Origin: a virus
DNA length: 41,891 nucleotides
IMG/VR virus record: IMGVR_UViG_3300014325_000007
Coordinates: 1 to 41,891 of that record
Direction: 5' to 3' (one strand)
The notes under the pieces are model-generated. The model worked only from the letters and a program-made list of their open reading frames with translations. It was not told where the DNA came from and made no database searches. The stretch's first letter is position 1, and the number at the start of each line of letters is the position of its first letter. Of the stretch, positions 1 to 41,891 are shown piece by piece. A program made the translations under genes and the position numbers.

Positions 1-123
1 AACCGATTGATTTTCAGTTGTAGCTGAACCGTCTTTCTTGTCGCCTATGCTACTGACTTTGCTGTTATTCCCATGTGTTGACATGGTGGGGGTCACAGGT
101 TCGATCCCTGTACTGCCCACCAC
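1..123. repeat. Terminal direct repeat, copy 1
   Basis: These 123 bases are identical to the last 123 bases of the window (41769-41891). The repeat contains 77 bases of phage-type sequence coding for the integrase tail, plus the 3' half of a tRNA gene. An integrated prophage would share only the tRNA part with host DNA at each end. A repeat that also holds phage coding sequence fits the overlap of a circular (or concatemeric) phage genome. Joining the copies closes the integrase frame cleanly, which supports this. Confidence 0.95.
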
Positions 124-1329
124 TCGCAACCCAATAACAGCGCGGTTTTCAAGGCCAACGGCCCCCGCTGATTCTGGTACGAGTGACCCCGCACTGACCC
201 CGATAAGCTCCCGCAGCCTTGGCACGTCGAGCGCCAATTCGGCCAGCCATGCGTCCAGCGTTTTCCTCGCATCGCCCAGGTAGTTAGGGTCGTACTTGGC
301 ATAGACTGCCGTCGTCGACGCGGCATCGCCTTTCGAGTGCCCGAGCAGGCCAGACACTTCCCAGCCAGGAACGCCACGCCGGCGCAACTCCGATGCCGCC
401 GTATGGCGGCAGATCTTCGGAACAAAATGGGGCGGCAGCTTTGCGGCGATTCGAACAGCACGCCACGCCTTGCGAATCGATCCCAGACGCGTTTCGCCGC
501 GCTTCGACGCGACATAATACGGGTCGGCCTTGGCGCCTTTCAGAACCGCGCGCAGCGTCGCAGTCAGCGGCACCACCGGGCGATACTTCTTCGTCTGCGC
601 TCGGCCGGGCGGATTAAGGCGCACGAGGTTCAGGTCAAAATCCACTTGGAAAGGCTGCAGGTCCAGAACGGCATCACCGCGGCATGCAGTGCATAGACGA
701 ATCATCGTATAGGTCCAGACGTTCGAATCCGTTGGAATGCAGTTAAGGAATCGCACGAGCTCGTCGCGCTTGGCCACATGCGGGTACGCTTCGCCACCCT
801 GCGGCAACGGAACGAATGGCACGCTGGTGATTTCCTGTCGGCGCCAAGCTCGGTTCAATGCGGCCTTGCCGAGCATCATCACGCGGCGGATGTAGCTCGC
901 GCTGTAACGCTTGATCGTTGGCTGAACATCCGGGCTCGGATTGCGCTCAAGGATCCACGTGCGTTCGCGCAGCCACGCGAGAAAATCATCGAAGCGGTCA
1001 GGCCGTAAGTCTGCAACCGTATCGTGCGCGAAAAATTCATTCCACAACTTCGCGGCCGAGCGCGCCGAACTGGCGCTGGCGATCTTGCTGCCATGCTTGG
1101 CAAGGTAGCGATCAATTACGACGGATACCGGCATCGCGGCCGGCTGCGCGTCGATGATGCGCGCAGTCTCAAGAATGATTTCGCGCGCCCTTACTTTGGC
1201 GGCGTCAACGCTTGTAGTGCCGCAACTGCGGCGCTGCTTTTCGCCGCGCTCGCGCCATTCAAGGTACCAGTTCTCCGAGCCTGTCCGCTTGACGAGTGCG
1301 TACTGATCGGTGATTGCGATGCGGGGCAT
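1..1329 (-). CDS. int: Tyrosine integrase (runs across attP)
   Basis: Site-specific recombinase for phage integration and excision. The frame opens at ATG 1329 and stays open to position 1. On the circular molecule it continues at 41768-41721 and ends TAG, giving about 458 residues. The N-terminal 60 residues look like an integrase arm-binding/SAM-like region. The catalytic domain shows Arg217 (in TACRGD), a beta-strand lysine near AQTKKYRP, an R308-H pair (KICRHT), LLGH, and Tyr343 in VYAKYDP. The usual His of HxxR is Lys305, a tolerated variant in some members. The last 45 or so residues, beginning GSTGIEPVTPTMST, are antisense tRNA plus attP arm, so they should change on integration. The start overlaps the xis-like gene by 139 bases. 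Confidence 0.9.
   Translation of the reverse strand, partial: MPRIAITDQYALVKRTGSENWYLEWRERGEKQRRSCGTTSVDAAKVRAREIILETARIIDAQPAAMPVSVVIDRYLAKHGSKIASASSARSAAKLWNEFFAHDTVADLRPDRFDDFLAWLRERTWILERNPSPDVQPTIKRYSASYIRRVMMLGKAALNRAWRRQEITSVPFVPLPQGGEAYPHVAKRDELVRFLNCIPTDSNVWTYTMIRLCTACRGDAVLDLQPFQVDFDLNLVRLNPPGRAQTKKYRPVVPLTATLRAVLKGAKADPYYVASKRGETRLGSIRKAWRAVRIAAKLPPHFVPKICRHTAASELRRRGVPGWEVSGLLGHSKGDAASTTAVYAKYDPNYLGDARKTLDAWLAELALDVPRLRELIGVSAGSLVPESAGAVGLENRAVIGLRVVGSTGIEPVTPTMSTHGNNSKVSSIGDKKDGSATTENQSV
78..122 (+). other. attP: attP core: 3' half of tRNA-Val(GAC)
   Basis: The block starts with an anticodon loop TTGACAT (78-84, anticodon GAC at 80-82). It continues with the 3' anticodon strand GGTGG (85-89), variable loop GGGTC, T stem ACAGG / CCTGT around loop TTCGATC (95-111), acceptor strand ACTGCCC, discriminator A and CCA (120-122). 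The upstream sequence cannot pair as the 5' anticodon, D or acceptor strands, so only half a tRNA is present. Many tyrosine integrases cross over in the anticodon loop and restore the tRNA 3' end from the phage; this block is the expected phage-borne core. The core is also translated, in antisense, as part of the integrase C-terminus. Confidence 0.88.
184..202. repeat. 19-bp repeat flanking attP core, right copy
   Basis: The sequence is two tandem TGACCCCG units separated by CAC. A copy with one mismatch lies at 41740-41758, on the other side of the core in the circular molecule, in the same orientation. Paired short repeats on both sides of a core are what arm-type integrase sites look like. 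The repeat also lies inside the integrase coding sequence (GVSAGS), so a coding duplication is an alternative. Confidence 0.55.
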
Positions 1330-1511
1330 TGTTGCGATTCCAGGTATTCGAGTAGGTGGGATTCTTTGTAGCGGGCTTTGCGGCCTATCTTGCAGAATGC
1401 GATCTGCCGCAGCTTGCGCATTCGTCGAAGTGTAAAAATGGATTTTTGTAAATACTCTGCCGCCTCGGCTTCGGAGTATAGCTTCGGCAGTTGCGTGACG
1501 GCTGCGTTCAT
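1191..1511 (-). CDS. xis: Excisionase-like HTH protein
   Basis: The first 60 residues form a MerR/HTH_17-type DNA-binding domain: a helix-turn-helix around YSEAEAAEYL..TLRRMRK (residues 12-33) and a wing KIGRKARYKESHLLEYLE (41-58). Such proteins next to an integrase usually act as recombination directionality factors. The start overlaps the MazG-like stop as ATGA, so translation is probably coupled. The 45-residue C-terminal tail is rich in Ala, Ser and Pro and lies entirely over the integrase N-terminus in another frame; this is an unusually long overlap, and the tail may be dispensable. The excisionase role is inferred from position. Confidence 0.72.
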   Translation of the reverse strand: MNAAVTQLPKLYSEAEAAEYLQKSIFTLRRMRKLRQIAFCKIGRKARYKESHLLEYLESQQCPASQSPISTHSSSGQARRTGTLNGASAAKSSAAVAALQALTPPK

Positions 1512-30261: not shown

Positions 30262-32508
30262 TTACACGTTTTCCGTATCGCCCGCTTCTGCGGGATCAAC
30301 GGCGATGATTGTGCACCGGCAATTCGGATGGCTGTCATCCATCGGCTTCGGCGCGCTGGCGATATCGTACGGGCCGTTGTCGGCCAGTTCGTTGCAGATT
30401 TGACACGCGCCGCCGCCGGTGACCCAGTTCACCTGTTTGACGCCCATGTTTTCATACTCACGCAACTTGCCAGCGCCCTGCGCGCGCGCAATCTCGCTAC
30501 GCGCAAGGCGCGTCCAATCGTATTCGCCGAGGTCGAATGCCGCGGCCAGGCGATCGGCGACGGTGTTCGGATTGATGCCGTCGAATGCACCATCGGCGAG
30601 CTGCTGCACGATGCCATCGTGATAGGTACGAACGGCGGCGTTGCGCACCAGCTCCAGCCCGCGCGTGGCAATTTCCAGGCGGATCGATTCGCGATAGGCG
30701 TCGACAGCGGCTTGCGCGTCAAACTCGCTCGCGGCATTCTCGAGACCGCGCACGAATGCATCGAACGCCTGCGCGATCAGCGGGCCATCCGTTGCGCCAG
30801 CCGCGGCAATGAACCGGTCTTGATCCGCCATCAGCTTGCGCAGCATCGTGCTCGCGTCGAATGTCCATACGGCCGAGCCATCGGCTGACATCAGTCCGAG
30901 CGTGTCGGCGGTATCCGCTTCCAGCTGTTGCCACAGTTCCATCAGCCCGTTTGCCGCTGCCGCTTCGATCAGCGGCAGTTGCGGATCGCTTTCCGCCCAC
31001 GGTTCGCCATCGTCTTCGCCGGCCGCCTTGTGCTGCGTGCAGTCGTGAAACGTCAGTTCGGTGACGATGCTACCGTTTTTTTTTAAGTGCGTTTGAACAC
31101 TTTTGACGCGCGCGCCCTTGCCCTGATTCGGATCGCCGCCGAGCCCCGGCGGCATGCCGTCGACGACGCCGGTCGGCGTATCGTTCGCGCCGGTGCGCCC
31201 CTGCGTCATCATGTCGGCTTGTGCATTGAGGAAGCGCGCCTGCGCCTGTTTCATCACGTCGCGCAGGTTCGGCAGCTCTTGCACAATTTCCCAATCGCCC
31301 GGTTTCCACGTGTAGCCTTCGCCGCGCAGGTGCGTCGAGACGATCGTATTCAGCGCTGGCAGGCGGCGCACGAAACGCACCTTGGATTCCATCAGCACCA
31401 TCTCCGACTGCTGATCGGCCATGCGGCCGGCCTGCGCTTCGGTGATGCCCACCATCCAGCCAGGAATGCGCAGCTTGGCGAGGATCTGCTCAACCATGTG
31501 CCGGCTCGGCATCTCGATATCCATCACCTCGCCCTTGCCGCCGATCACCTGAATCTGGATTTCGTCGTCAGCGCCGATCGCCTGCACAAAGTCCGCACTG
31601 TTGCCCATGCGCTTCGCCGACAACACGTTCGCAAGATCGTTCGCGAGTGTGGCCGTGCGTTTGTCCAGGTCGGTTTGCTTGAGTGAACGGTTTTTCGTTT
31701 TGTACGTGAGTTGGAACGGCGGATCGCCGAACCGATCCCACGCGCGGCCGGTCGCGTTTTGGATACGCAGCAGGTTCTGCGAGACGAACTCGATCGAGCG
31801 CAGCAGACTCACGCCATACGGGTTGTTTGATTCCGGCCGGAACGCGTTGTATACAAGTGTACTAGGATCAAGGTCCATGTAATTGAGCTGATTAAGATAG
31901 CCAGGCGTCACGTTCACAATGTTGTTGCGCACGACCACTTCCGTGTAGTCGGTGCCATTGCGCCTGGTTGCGAGTTCGTACGCCGGCGGCCGGTAGTACC
32001 ATTCGATCGTGCCGTTTTCGTCGCGGCGCGCGAGCAGGCCCTTAGCATCGGCCGTGCGCAATCCGATCAAGCGCCGGCCGCGCGCATCCATGACGCGCTC
32101 GGCCATACCGAAGCCCTGTTCGTACATCTCGTTGCCTATGATTTCGTAATAGCTCTGCAGACCGAACTCGCCATCGTCGACCGGCAACTCGCGCATCGCA
32201 GCGTCCAGCTCGTCGCACAGCGCCTGGTCCTTGCCTTCGAAGCGCACGAGGCCGTCGAGCAGCACCATGCAGTTGATGCCGCCCTCCAGTAGCGGAATCG
32301 CACGGCGCAATGCTTCGTAAAAATACGGGTTCACCAGCTGCGGCACGAACGTGTGCAGCATCGCATCCCACGGGCCGAGTGTCATGCCTGCGCGTACGAT
32401 CTGACTGCCGCCGAAGGCTTGTTCCTTGCGGCCGCGGAGACCGCGTGCCATGACGCTGGTGTTCTTGATAGCGCGCGAGCGCGATGTTTTTGCCTTGGAA
32501 GTTTTCAT
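30262..32508 (-). CDS. Portal-MuF head morphogenesis fusion
   Basis: 748 residues, ATG overlapping the terminase stop as ATGA. Residues 40-470 are the portal: LGPWDAMLHTFVPQLVNPYF, NNPYGVSLLRSIEF, and IPGWMVGITEAQAGRMADQQSE-type segments. From about 640 is a MuF/SPP1 gp7-like domain: RLARSEIARAQGAGKL, then ACQICNEL and HPNCRC with paired cysteines. Such fusions place the minor head protein on the portal. Between the domains, codons 475-478 lie on a run of nine A; a -1 slip there gives AAA CGG TAG and a 479-residue portal without MuF. Confidence 0.9.
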   Translation of the reverse strand: MKTSKAKTSRSRAIKNTSVMARGLRGRKEQAFGGSQIVRAGMTLGPWDAMLHTFVPQLVNPYFYEALRRAIPLLEGGINCMVLLDGLVRFEGKDQALCDELDAAMRELPVDDGEFGLQSYYEIIGNEMYEQGFGMAERVMDARGRRLIGLRTADAKGLLARRDENGTIEWYYRPPAYELATRRNGTDYTEVVVRNNIVNVTPGYLNQLNYMDLDPSTLVYNAFRPESNNPYGVSLLRSIEFVSQNLLRIQNATGRAWDRFGDPPFQLTYKTKNRSLKQTDLDKRTATLANDLANVLSAKRMGNSADFVQAIGADDEIQIQVIGGKGEVMDIEMPSRHMVEQILAKLRIPGWMVGITEAQAGRMADQQSEMVLMESKVRFVRRLPALNTIVSTHLRGEGYTWKPGDWEIVQELPNLRDVMKQAQARFLNAQADMMTQGRTGANDTPTGVVDGMPPGLGGDPNQGKGARVKSVQTHLKKNGSIVTELTFHDCTQHKAAGEDDGEPWAESDPQLPLIEAAAANGLMELWQQLEADTADTLGLMSADGSAVWTFDASTMLRKLMADQDRFIAAAGATDGPLIAQAFDAFVRGLENAASEFDAQAAVDAYRESIRLEIATRGLELVRNAAVRTYHDGIVQQLADGAFDGINPNTVADRLAAAFDLGEYDWTRLARSEIARAQGAGKLREYENMGVKQVNWVTGGGACQICNELADNGPYDIASAPKPMDDSHPNCRCTIIAVDPAEAGDTENV
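31070..31086 (-). promoter_or_regulatory. A9 slippery run at portal/MuF boundary
   Basis: On the minus strand TTA AAA AAA AAC GGT AGC (L475 to S480) contains nine consecutive A (31084-31076), followed by C. In the -1 frame it reads AAA CGG TAG with TAG at 31072-31070. Long A runs promote both ribosomal and RNA polymerase slippage. The run is striking in a GC-rich gene and lies between two domains. Confidence 0.65.
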
Positions 32509-40369: not shown

Positions 40370-40728
40370 GGCGCGCCCCTCCCCCGAACCCCCTCCAATT
40401 TTTCGACCGACCACCAGGTAAGGCCTGAGGCCTTTCGACCATTAGCGTTCGATAGGGGGGTGGCACCAGCTCGTACACCACCGCCCCGAGCCATCAGCCG
40501 AACGCCAAGCGCATCAACGCCTTGCGATTTCGGCACACACCAGCTTTCGGCGTTGGGTTCAGTTATCCACAGCACTAAGCCTTTTCGACGGCGGCCAGCG
40601 GCTCGAACAAGCTGCAGGCCGCGCTGCGCTTGTCGTGCGCCTGTTGTTAGGCTTTCGTTACAGTTCCGTACCGGAACTGCTTTAGCGCCCGCAGGTAGGT
40701 GCGACAAAAGCGAGCTAGAGCGGATCAT
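40366..40728 (-). CDS. Hypothetical protein, 120 residues
   Basis: ATG 40728, 14 bases inside the end of the DUF1376 gene. Reads MIRSSSLLSHLPAGAKAV, then GLVLWITEPNAESWCVPKSQ and ASGLTWWSVEKLEGV. It keeps a Trp-rich, basic composition unlike the shadows of neighbouring frames, and its stop overlaps the next ATG. No family recognised. Confidence 0.5.
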   Translation of the reverse strand: MIRSSSLLSHLPAGAKAVPVRNCNESLTTGARQAQRGLQLVRAAGRRRKGLVLWITEPNAESWCVPKSQGVDALGVRLMARGGGVRAGATPLSNANGRKASGLTWWSVEKLEGVRGRGAP

Positions 40729-41719
40729 GTGTAACCTCCGGCTCTGCCGCTGGCGGCAACTTCGCTCCGAAAAACTCTTTGATCCCTTGGAGGAATGCGC
40801 CGACCTTCTCGGGACTTGCCGGCTGCCGAATCTCTCGCGGCTTTGGCGCTGATGGCGTTGCTGCCTCGGTCGACGCGCGCTTGCCGTTGATTGGCTTCGG
40901 CCCTTCGGCATGGCGACGCCTGGCCGCCGTGATAGCCCAAGCGAACGGGTTCGTCTTATCCGCCTTGATCGCCTCGCGCACTGTGTCGGCTAATACCTCG
41001 GCACTGATGCCTTCGGCAATCGCAGCCGCCAGATCTGGGCTGCTCGGATTCGTCTTCTTTGCTCCCGCATCCTCCATGAGCGCGCACGCACGCGCTGCTA
41101 TGTTGACGCTTGCATGCTTGCTATGAGGTACAGAAGAAGAACAAAGCTCTTCTTCCCTTCTATTCCCTTCCCTTCCCTTCTCTTCTCTTAAGAGCGGATT
41201 TCCTAGGGACGTCCCAGGAATGTCCTCAGGACGTCCATCAGACATCCTTGGGACAAACTTATCCGAGCCAGTCAACGCAACATATTGTTTCCATTCGTCA
41301 AACGATGGAATAACCGCATCAGCCTTCGCGCGGTAAGCAGCCTTTTTAAGGCGATCACACTCGCGGCCATAGCGCGAGCGCATTTTCGAATCCCACGCCT
41401 CGATCGCGCAGACCGCGAGCACGGAGTGATATAGCCTGCCGTCGCTGCACAACTGGAAACCGCGCAGAGCGCCTTCTCGGACTTTCGCCCAACCGTCTGG
41501 ATCGCGCGCATAACCGACGTATGCGGCCAGGACTCGATCATCGTCGGGAAGGCTTGCTGCCGGAGCCTGGTGCCAGGCAACGCACCATAGGATTACGGCA
41601 GCGCGGAATTCATCGCCGCTGGCGCTGATGGCGAGCGAACTGTCACGCAACCGCCCAACATGGAGCGGCATGTATGGAAAGTCACGGAGAAGTACGTCGT
41701 GAGGTACGAGCGGATCCAT
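40715..41719 (-). CDS. DUF1376 replication protein
   Basis: 334 residues, ATG one base after the integrase stop on the circular genome. DUF1376 pattern at the N-terminus: FPYMPLHVGRLRDSSLAI, GDEFRAAVILWCVAWHQ, ASLPDDDRVLAAYVGYARD, FQLCSDGRLYHSVLA (residues 15-105). A charged linker (GREGNRREEE) leads to a helical C-terminal part DKTNPFAWAITAARRRHAEG, as in phage replication initiators/helicase loaders. It probably opens the origin or loads host DnaB; the origin may lie in its own gene, though I see no clear iterons. Confidence 0.8.
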   Translation of the reverse strand: MDPLVPHDVLLRDFPYMPLHVGRLRDSSLAISASGDEFRAAVILWCVAWHQAPAASLPDDDRVLAAYVGYARDPDGWAKVREGALRGFQLCSDGRLYHSVLAVCAIEAWDSKMRSRYGRECDRLKKAAYRAKADAVIPSFDEWKQYVALTGSDKFVPRMSDGRPEDIPGTSLGNPLLREEKGREGNRREEELCSSSVPHSKHASVNIAARACALMEDAGAKKTNPSSPDLAAAIAEGISAEVLADTVREAIKADKTNPFAWAITAARRRHAEGPKPINGKRASTEAATPSAPKPREIRQPASPEKVGAFLQGIKEFFGAKLPPAAEPEVTHDPL

Positions 41720-41720
41720 C

Positions 41721-41768
41721 CTATGTCCGCTCCTTGGACTGGCCCCGCACTGACCCCGCTATTGCGCT
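41721..41768 (-). CDS. int: 3' end of the integrase gene (after circularisation)
   Basis: The integrase frame leaving position 1 (equal to 41769) continues here as SAIAGSVRGQSKERT and stops TAG at 41723-41721, one base before the DUF1376 ATG at 41719. In a lysogen this piece would be separated from int and replaced by antisense tRNA-Val 5' sequence. Confidence 0.82.
   Translation of the reverse strand, partial: SAIAGSVRGQSKERT
41740..41758. repeat. 19-bp repeat flanking attP core, left copy
   Basis: TGGCCCCGCACTGACCCCG, 18 of 19 identical to 184-202 and in the same orientation. In the circle it lies 87 bases before the tRNA half, while the other copy lies 61 bases after it. Candidate integrase arm site; also codes the integrase tail. 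Confidence 0.55.
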
Positions 41769-41891
41769 AACCGATTGATTTTCAGTTGTAGCTGAACCGT
41801 CTTTCTTGTCGCCTATGCTACTGACTTTGCTGTTATTCCCATGTGTTGACATGGTGGGGGTCACAGGTTCGATCCCTGTACTGCCCACCAC
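41769..41891. repeat. Terminal direct repeat, copy 2
   Basis: Identical to 1-123. Only one copy should exist in the circular genome. Confidence 0.95.
41846..41890 (+). other. attP: attP core, second copy
   Basis: Same tRNA-Val(GAC) 3' half as 78-122, from anticodon loop to CCA, present because the window repeats the junction. Confidence 0.88.

Follow-up and report, generated by a model that had tools for sequence, protein, structure and literature searches.

The integrase of this phage belongs to a family in which the C-terminus of the protein changes when the element integrates. In six relatives with both att junctions present, the int gene ends differently in the prophage and in the reconstructed circle. 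The original prediction was that the C-terminus of the phage's own integrase changes in this way. The change is seen in these six relatives and fits 15 prophages set against about 14 circular forms; no lysogen of the phage itself was found. We put at roughly 80% the probability that the phage integrates at a tRNA-Val gene, carries attP within int and swaps the integrase C-terminus on integration, with the tail of the circular form being a by-product of att DNA.

The int gene and attP on the circular genome

The window, i.e., the whole stretch of DNA analysed, is the record IMGVR_UViG_3300014325_000007 of 41,891 bases. Positions 1–123 are identical to positions 41769–41891, and through this exact 123-bp terminal repeat the record can be circularised to 41,768 bp. 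The features are collected in Table 1. When the frame of int is read across the junction, it stops at TAG 41721–41723 and encodes 458 aa with the C-terminus ...VGSTGIEPVTPTMSTHGNNSKVSSIGDKKDGSATTENQSVSAIAGSVRGQSKERT. Joining the repeat ends thus bears out the predicted end SKERT at 41721. The prediction that the frame passes through the tRNA half-core, reading GIEPVTPTMST, was also correct in coordinates and residues; the half-core corresponds to residues of about 403–418. Residues 189–345 match the Phage_integrase family of Pfam (PF00589, E 8e-8, above the curated cut-off). The core at residues 403–418 lies beyond this match, and integration would not break the catalytic coding part.

The attP core is identical to a tRNA 3′ end and adjoins int, as is typical of a tRNA-targeting tyrosine integrase with a linked attP. 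In relatives, an intact tRNA-Val(GAC) is present at attL. The core is open in the int frame in 18 of 18 attP sequences compared, most of which are also open in one neighbouring frame. Beyond the core, the circular form adds a tail of 40 codons from the phage arm. By our own estimate, an open tail of this length is expected in about 15% of random sequences and is unremarkable. The overlap of int and attP is real, but the openness of the frame is by itself no surprise.

The record terminates precisely where the att core ends (window positions 123 and 41891). The repeat length resembles an assembler overlap, 123 being a k-mer size of older JGI MEGAHIT runs. A break at this point may mark a branch of the assembly graph between attP and attR, as expected if the sample also held integrated copies.

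Table 1. Features of int, attP and the adjoining genes in the window (positions on the 41,891-base record).
Feature	Position	Strand	Basis
int, tyrosine integrase	1..1329	-	ATG at 1329; open to position 1 (443 aa within the record)
Last part of int on the circle: final phage-encoded tail codons, SAIAGSVRGQSKERT + stop	41721..41768	-	frame read across the junction
att core, 3′ half (46 bp) of tRNA-Val(GAC) from the anticodon loop through CCA and one further base; antisense to int	78..123	+	sequence; in relatives the matching stretch is a direct repeat at both prophage ends
Second core copy in the terminal repeat (same locus on the circle)	41846..41891	+	end repeat
Putative int-side arm-type sites, tandem GGGGTCAGT/GGGGTCACT (182–190, 193–201), inside int codons	182..201	-	16-bp exact repeat with far arm; same position in L043, L047 and L141
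Putative far-arm arm-type sites GGGGTCAGT/GGGGCCAGT, +88 and +99 from core, inside int tail codons	41738..41757	-	repeat with int-side arm
Putative IHF site AATCAATCGGTTA, +65 from core, inside int tail codons	41768..41780	-	match to IHF consensus
Excisionase-like HTH protein upstream of int, overlapping the int start	1191..1511	-	PF12728, E 2e-10; phrog_66, E 6e-7
DUF1376 protein, ATG one base past the int stop	40715..41719	-	PF07120, E 4e-10

The integrase C-terminus in prophages and circles

The clearest pair comes from a Parvularcula MAG (G001, 36% identity), in which a 45-bp core is present at both ends of a 10-kb element. Its integrated int encodes 393 aa ending in TMSR; with the core joined to the attR arm, the product has 401 aa and ends in TMSTHEKPSEDK. 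The 61-kb element G558 ends in TMST when integrated and in TMSRKWTTR on the circle. The element G029 sits at a tRNA-Gly gene, and its integrase ends in NLGKVVLYP (last residues VVLYP) in the prophage and in NLGKTVEVKQKQRLK (last residues TVEVKQKQRLK) on the circle. Three prophage records among the viral contigs (L141, L143 and L147) gave the same kind of pair, with the record of L147 stopping ahead of the integrated int stop. The proposed comparison of int between prophage and circle therefore showed different lengths and ends in relatives.

The integrases of 15 prophages at tRNA-Val(GAC) end in TMSR or TMST, and the swap fits these against the circular forms; in about half of the 15, the record is cut at or just past the int stop, so the tRNA is not seen whole. 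The host anticodon stem reads CTACC or CTACG, and its antisense supplies an in-frame TAG after one codon, hence the uniform ends. The tails of the circular relatives run to 6–53 codons, mostly about 10, compared with 40 in the window. Since the host TAG comes at once, integration usually truncates int and adds no antisense-tRNA tail. The original prediction had the antisense of the tRNA-Val 5′ half forming a new tail in the lysogen, and in relatives there is usually no such tail: they gain almost nothing, owing to the TAG in the anticodon stem.

Searches for the exact core among the viral contigs gave no match, nor did a search of 398 genomes with up to one mismatch. The core resembles Methylobacterium, Shinella and an Acetobacter phage, which is no more than a hint of an alphaproteobacterial host. 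Among Acetobacter phages, phiAX1 and phiAP1 have comparable tRNA halves, and in neither was an int frame seen to cross it. The window core carries GGTGG. When the window int was spliced onto four tRNA-Val(GAC) 5′ halves with a stem of the CTACC/CTACG type, the protein had 418 aa; with a Sulfitobacter tRNA that has a different stem, it had 461 aa. The predicted lysogen end at 418 aa is thus conditional on a host stem of CTACC or CTACG.

How far the overlap is kept was examined in a tail-blind scan, with the search pattern placed in the catalytic part of int. In all of the nine closest relatives (49–54% identity), the frame stays open across the core. A later scan that used the core peptide as its pattern was biased toward the overlap, and was used only for the sequence after the core; it added one relative without the overlap (L142, 47% identity). 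The frame runs through the core in L043–L051, L136–L141, G001 and G558, which share the integrase family of the window and target tRNA-Val(GAC). Identity to the window integrase is about 47–54% for the viral loci and about 35% for G001 and G558, and the closest members carry tandem GGGGTCAGT sites. The same type of core is found in L053, L055, L153, L177 and Citromicrobium phage RXM, where int stops before it. In L005 and L006, located at tRNA-Val(TAC), int also stops before the core.

Predicted arm and IHF sites

Arm-type repeats flank the core of the window. None of 500 shuffles equalled the 16-bp exact repeat across the core. The tandem GGGGTCAGT sites have an 11-nt period and occur on both sides of the core, in the upstream codons of int as well as in the far arm. 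The far-arm copies lie at exactly +88/+99 in the window, L043, L046, L047 and L049, and L141 agrees. The int-side copies lie at −123/−112 or −77/−66 and are read in different frames, indicating that the DNA rather than the peptide has been kept. IHF-consensus sites are present at +65 (and near +19), with six exact far-arm matches, all on one strand, against 0.04 expected. We infer the repeats to be Int arm sites and IHF sites. Other elements use different repeat words, with the far repeat starting 84–87 nt out; the words of G001 and G558 taken alone are within chance. A 9-bp inverted repeat flanking the core was set aside as within chance (27% of shuffles).

In the far arm of L043, L046, L048, L049 and L141, the first IHF-like site (about +30) reads TAR where the consensus has TTR. 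This change creates the in-frame int stop about 10 codons past the core in that clade. Other relatives keep TTR, and int often reads on.

Taken together, a temperate phage would use its tyrosine integrase to insert into the 3′ half of the host tRNA-Val(GAC) gene. On the circle, attP is embedded in the 3′ end of int, with putative int-side arm sites, core, IHF-like site and putative far-arm sites all within the open frame. Integration would cut this frame inside the core, the phage-encoded tail would be lost, and host DNA would end int. In the relatives, the stop is the TAG that the host anticodon stem supplies in antisense, hence the uniform TMSR or TMST, and the window phage probably behaves in the same way.

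The tail of the circular form

Across five related circular tails, the differences at codon positions 1/2/3 are 0.16/0.34/0.32, a small sample of short tails. The corresponding values are 0.08/0.06/0.50 for the int body and about 0.6 throughout for non-coding bases further out. Within the limits of this small sample, the tail appears as conserved DNA with no amino-acid signal. The median tail length in the int frame is 10 codons, against 15 and 8 in the other two frames, which is no difference. The charge of the tail is close to that expected from composition and no higher than in another frame; its lysine-rich look does not exceed what these two give. Per codon, the window tail scores −0.07, and 40-codon stretches of the phage's genes have a median of 0.6. 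AlphaFold predicts residues 394–443 to be unfolded, in a weak model with a mean pLDDT of 64. No sigma-70-like promoter and no terminator were seen in the tail region. The likeliest explanation is that read-through of att DNA is tolerated, the integrase being active with and without the tail.

The original prediction went further and proposed that the two forms could differ in activity or stability and so give the phage a sense of its state. On this reading the long-tailed circular form and the short prophage form would differ in activity, stability or directionality, as reported for Mx8. The two forms do differ in the relatives, and PMC4701971 reports the integrated form of Mx8 to be less active. 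The retention of the overlap in all nine closest relatives of the tail-blind scan could also hint at a use. Yet the tail lacks amino-acid constraint, varies in length, has a charge within composition and is predicted to be disordered (in the weak model), and it is dispensable in other relatives, where int stops before the core. With its bases accounted for by attP DNA sites, and with neither a third-position signal nor a favoured length nor a predicted fold, the sense of state is unsupported, and we consider it unlikely. The same doubt applies to a broader version, in which phages and small phage-like elements of a whole family take the int stop codon from the anticodon stem of the host tRNA-Val, the circle-only tail tunes the enzyme for integration, and the integrase reports the state of the element.

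Another reading is translational coupling: on the circle, translation of int might continue up to the DUF1376 start, a link that would exist in the circular genome alone. A single base separates the int stop from the DUF1376 ATG, and AAGGAG (41730–41735) lies inside the last int codons ahead of it, but int stops about 10 codons past the core in close relatives. Such coupling would be peculiar to the window phage, and we regard it as highly improbable. That the junction does not exist and the read-through was produced by the record ends is barely credible: the claim does depend on joined ends, and the 123-bp repeat may be assembler overlap, but the joined attP has the same +65/+88/+99 layout as independent relatives with int inside the contig.

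Neighbouring genes and related elements

The excisionase-like ORF overlaps the int start out of frame, by 139 nt in the window and by 163 nt in the Parvularcula element (L014 9643–9984, 9822), so that this module contains two overlaps. This 10-kb element (L014, G001:C36:11000-23000) has HNH, terminase-like, portal-like and capsid-like ORFs, an excisionase-like HTH protein and int, with no evident tail genes. Judged from its ORF translations, it looks like a capsid-forming satellite that carries the integrase family of the window. Two others are of comparable size, the G029 element at 11.7 kb and the L143 record at 12.8 kb.

Elsewhere in the window, the probable terminase at 32505–34385 shows 66% identity over 99% to a protein of Microcystis phage MACPNOA1 and 67–83% to thirteen viral contigs; the window integrase has no relative as close as these. 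A 924-aa protein at 1885–4659 matches DNA helicase and DNA methyltransferase families and is apparently a fusion.

Comparison with known systems

Integration of SSV splits the integrase gene near its 5′ part and breaks it. No such split is seen in the window, where the core falls at residues 403–418 and the catalytic part of int stays whole. The intP and attP of the Myxococcus phage Mx8 were reportedly studied by Tojo in 1996 and Magrini in 1999. PMC4383910 lists Mx8 and SSV as having integrases that extend across attP, and the SSV-type archaeal integrases named there resemble the window's in that the gene spans attP. In Mx8, attP also lies inside a tyrosine integrase gene and integration replaces the C-terminus of the enzyme; the sources describe a new int 3′ end (PMC6070905) and 112 residues replaced by 13, with altered activity (PMC4701971). 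The window phage differs in that at most the last 40 residues, beyond the catalytic domain, would be affected, and its relatives differ in ending at a host TAG within one codon. Exchange of the integrase C-terminus is already known from Mx8, and the window is probably a further case. The streptococcal ICEs in rumA likewise have att within the integrase gene, and the excised element encodes an integrase of another length and C-terminus (PMC4701971); those elements combine a serine integrase with a protein-gene target, whereas the window combines a tyrosine integrase with a tRNA target.

Att sites inside integrase genes were described for very few elements (PMC4701971), whereas here the arrangement is found in dozens of records of one family. 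The recurring integrase ending GIEPVTPTMS is antisense tRNA and not a protein motif, and the length of int in a prophage annotation depends on host DNA. The family offers naturally occurring integrases whose C-terminus differs between the free and the integrated state, with prophage and circle sequences available as pairs.
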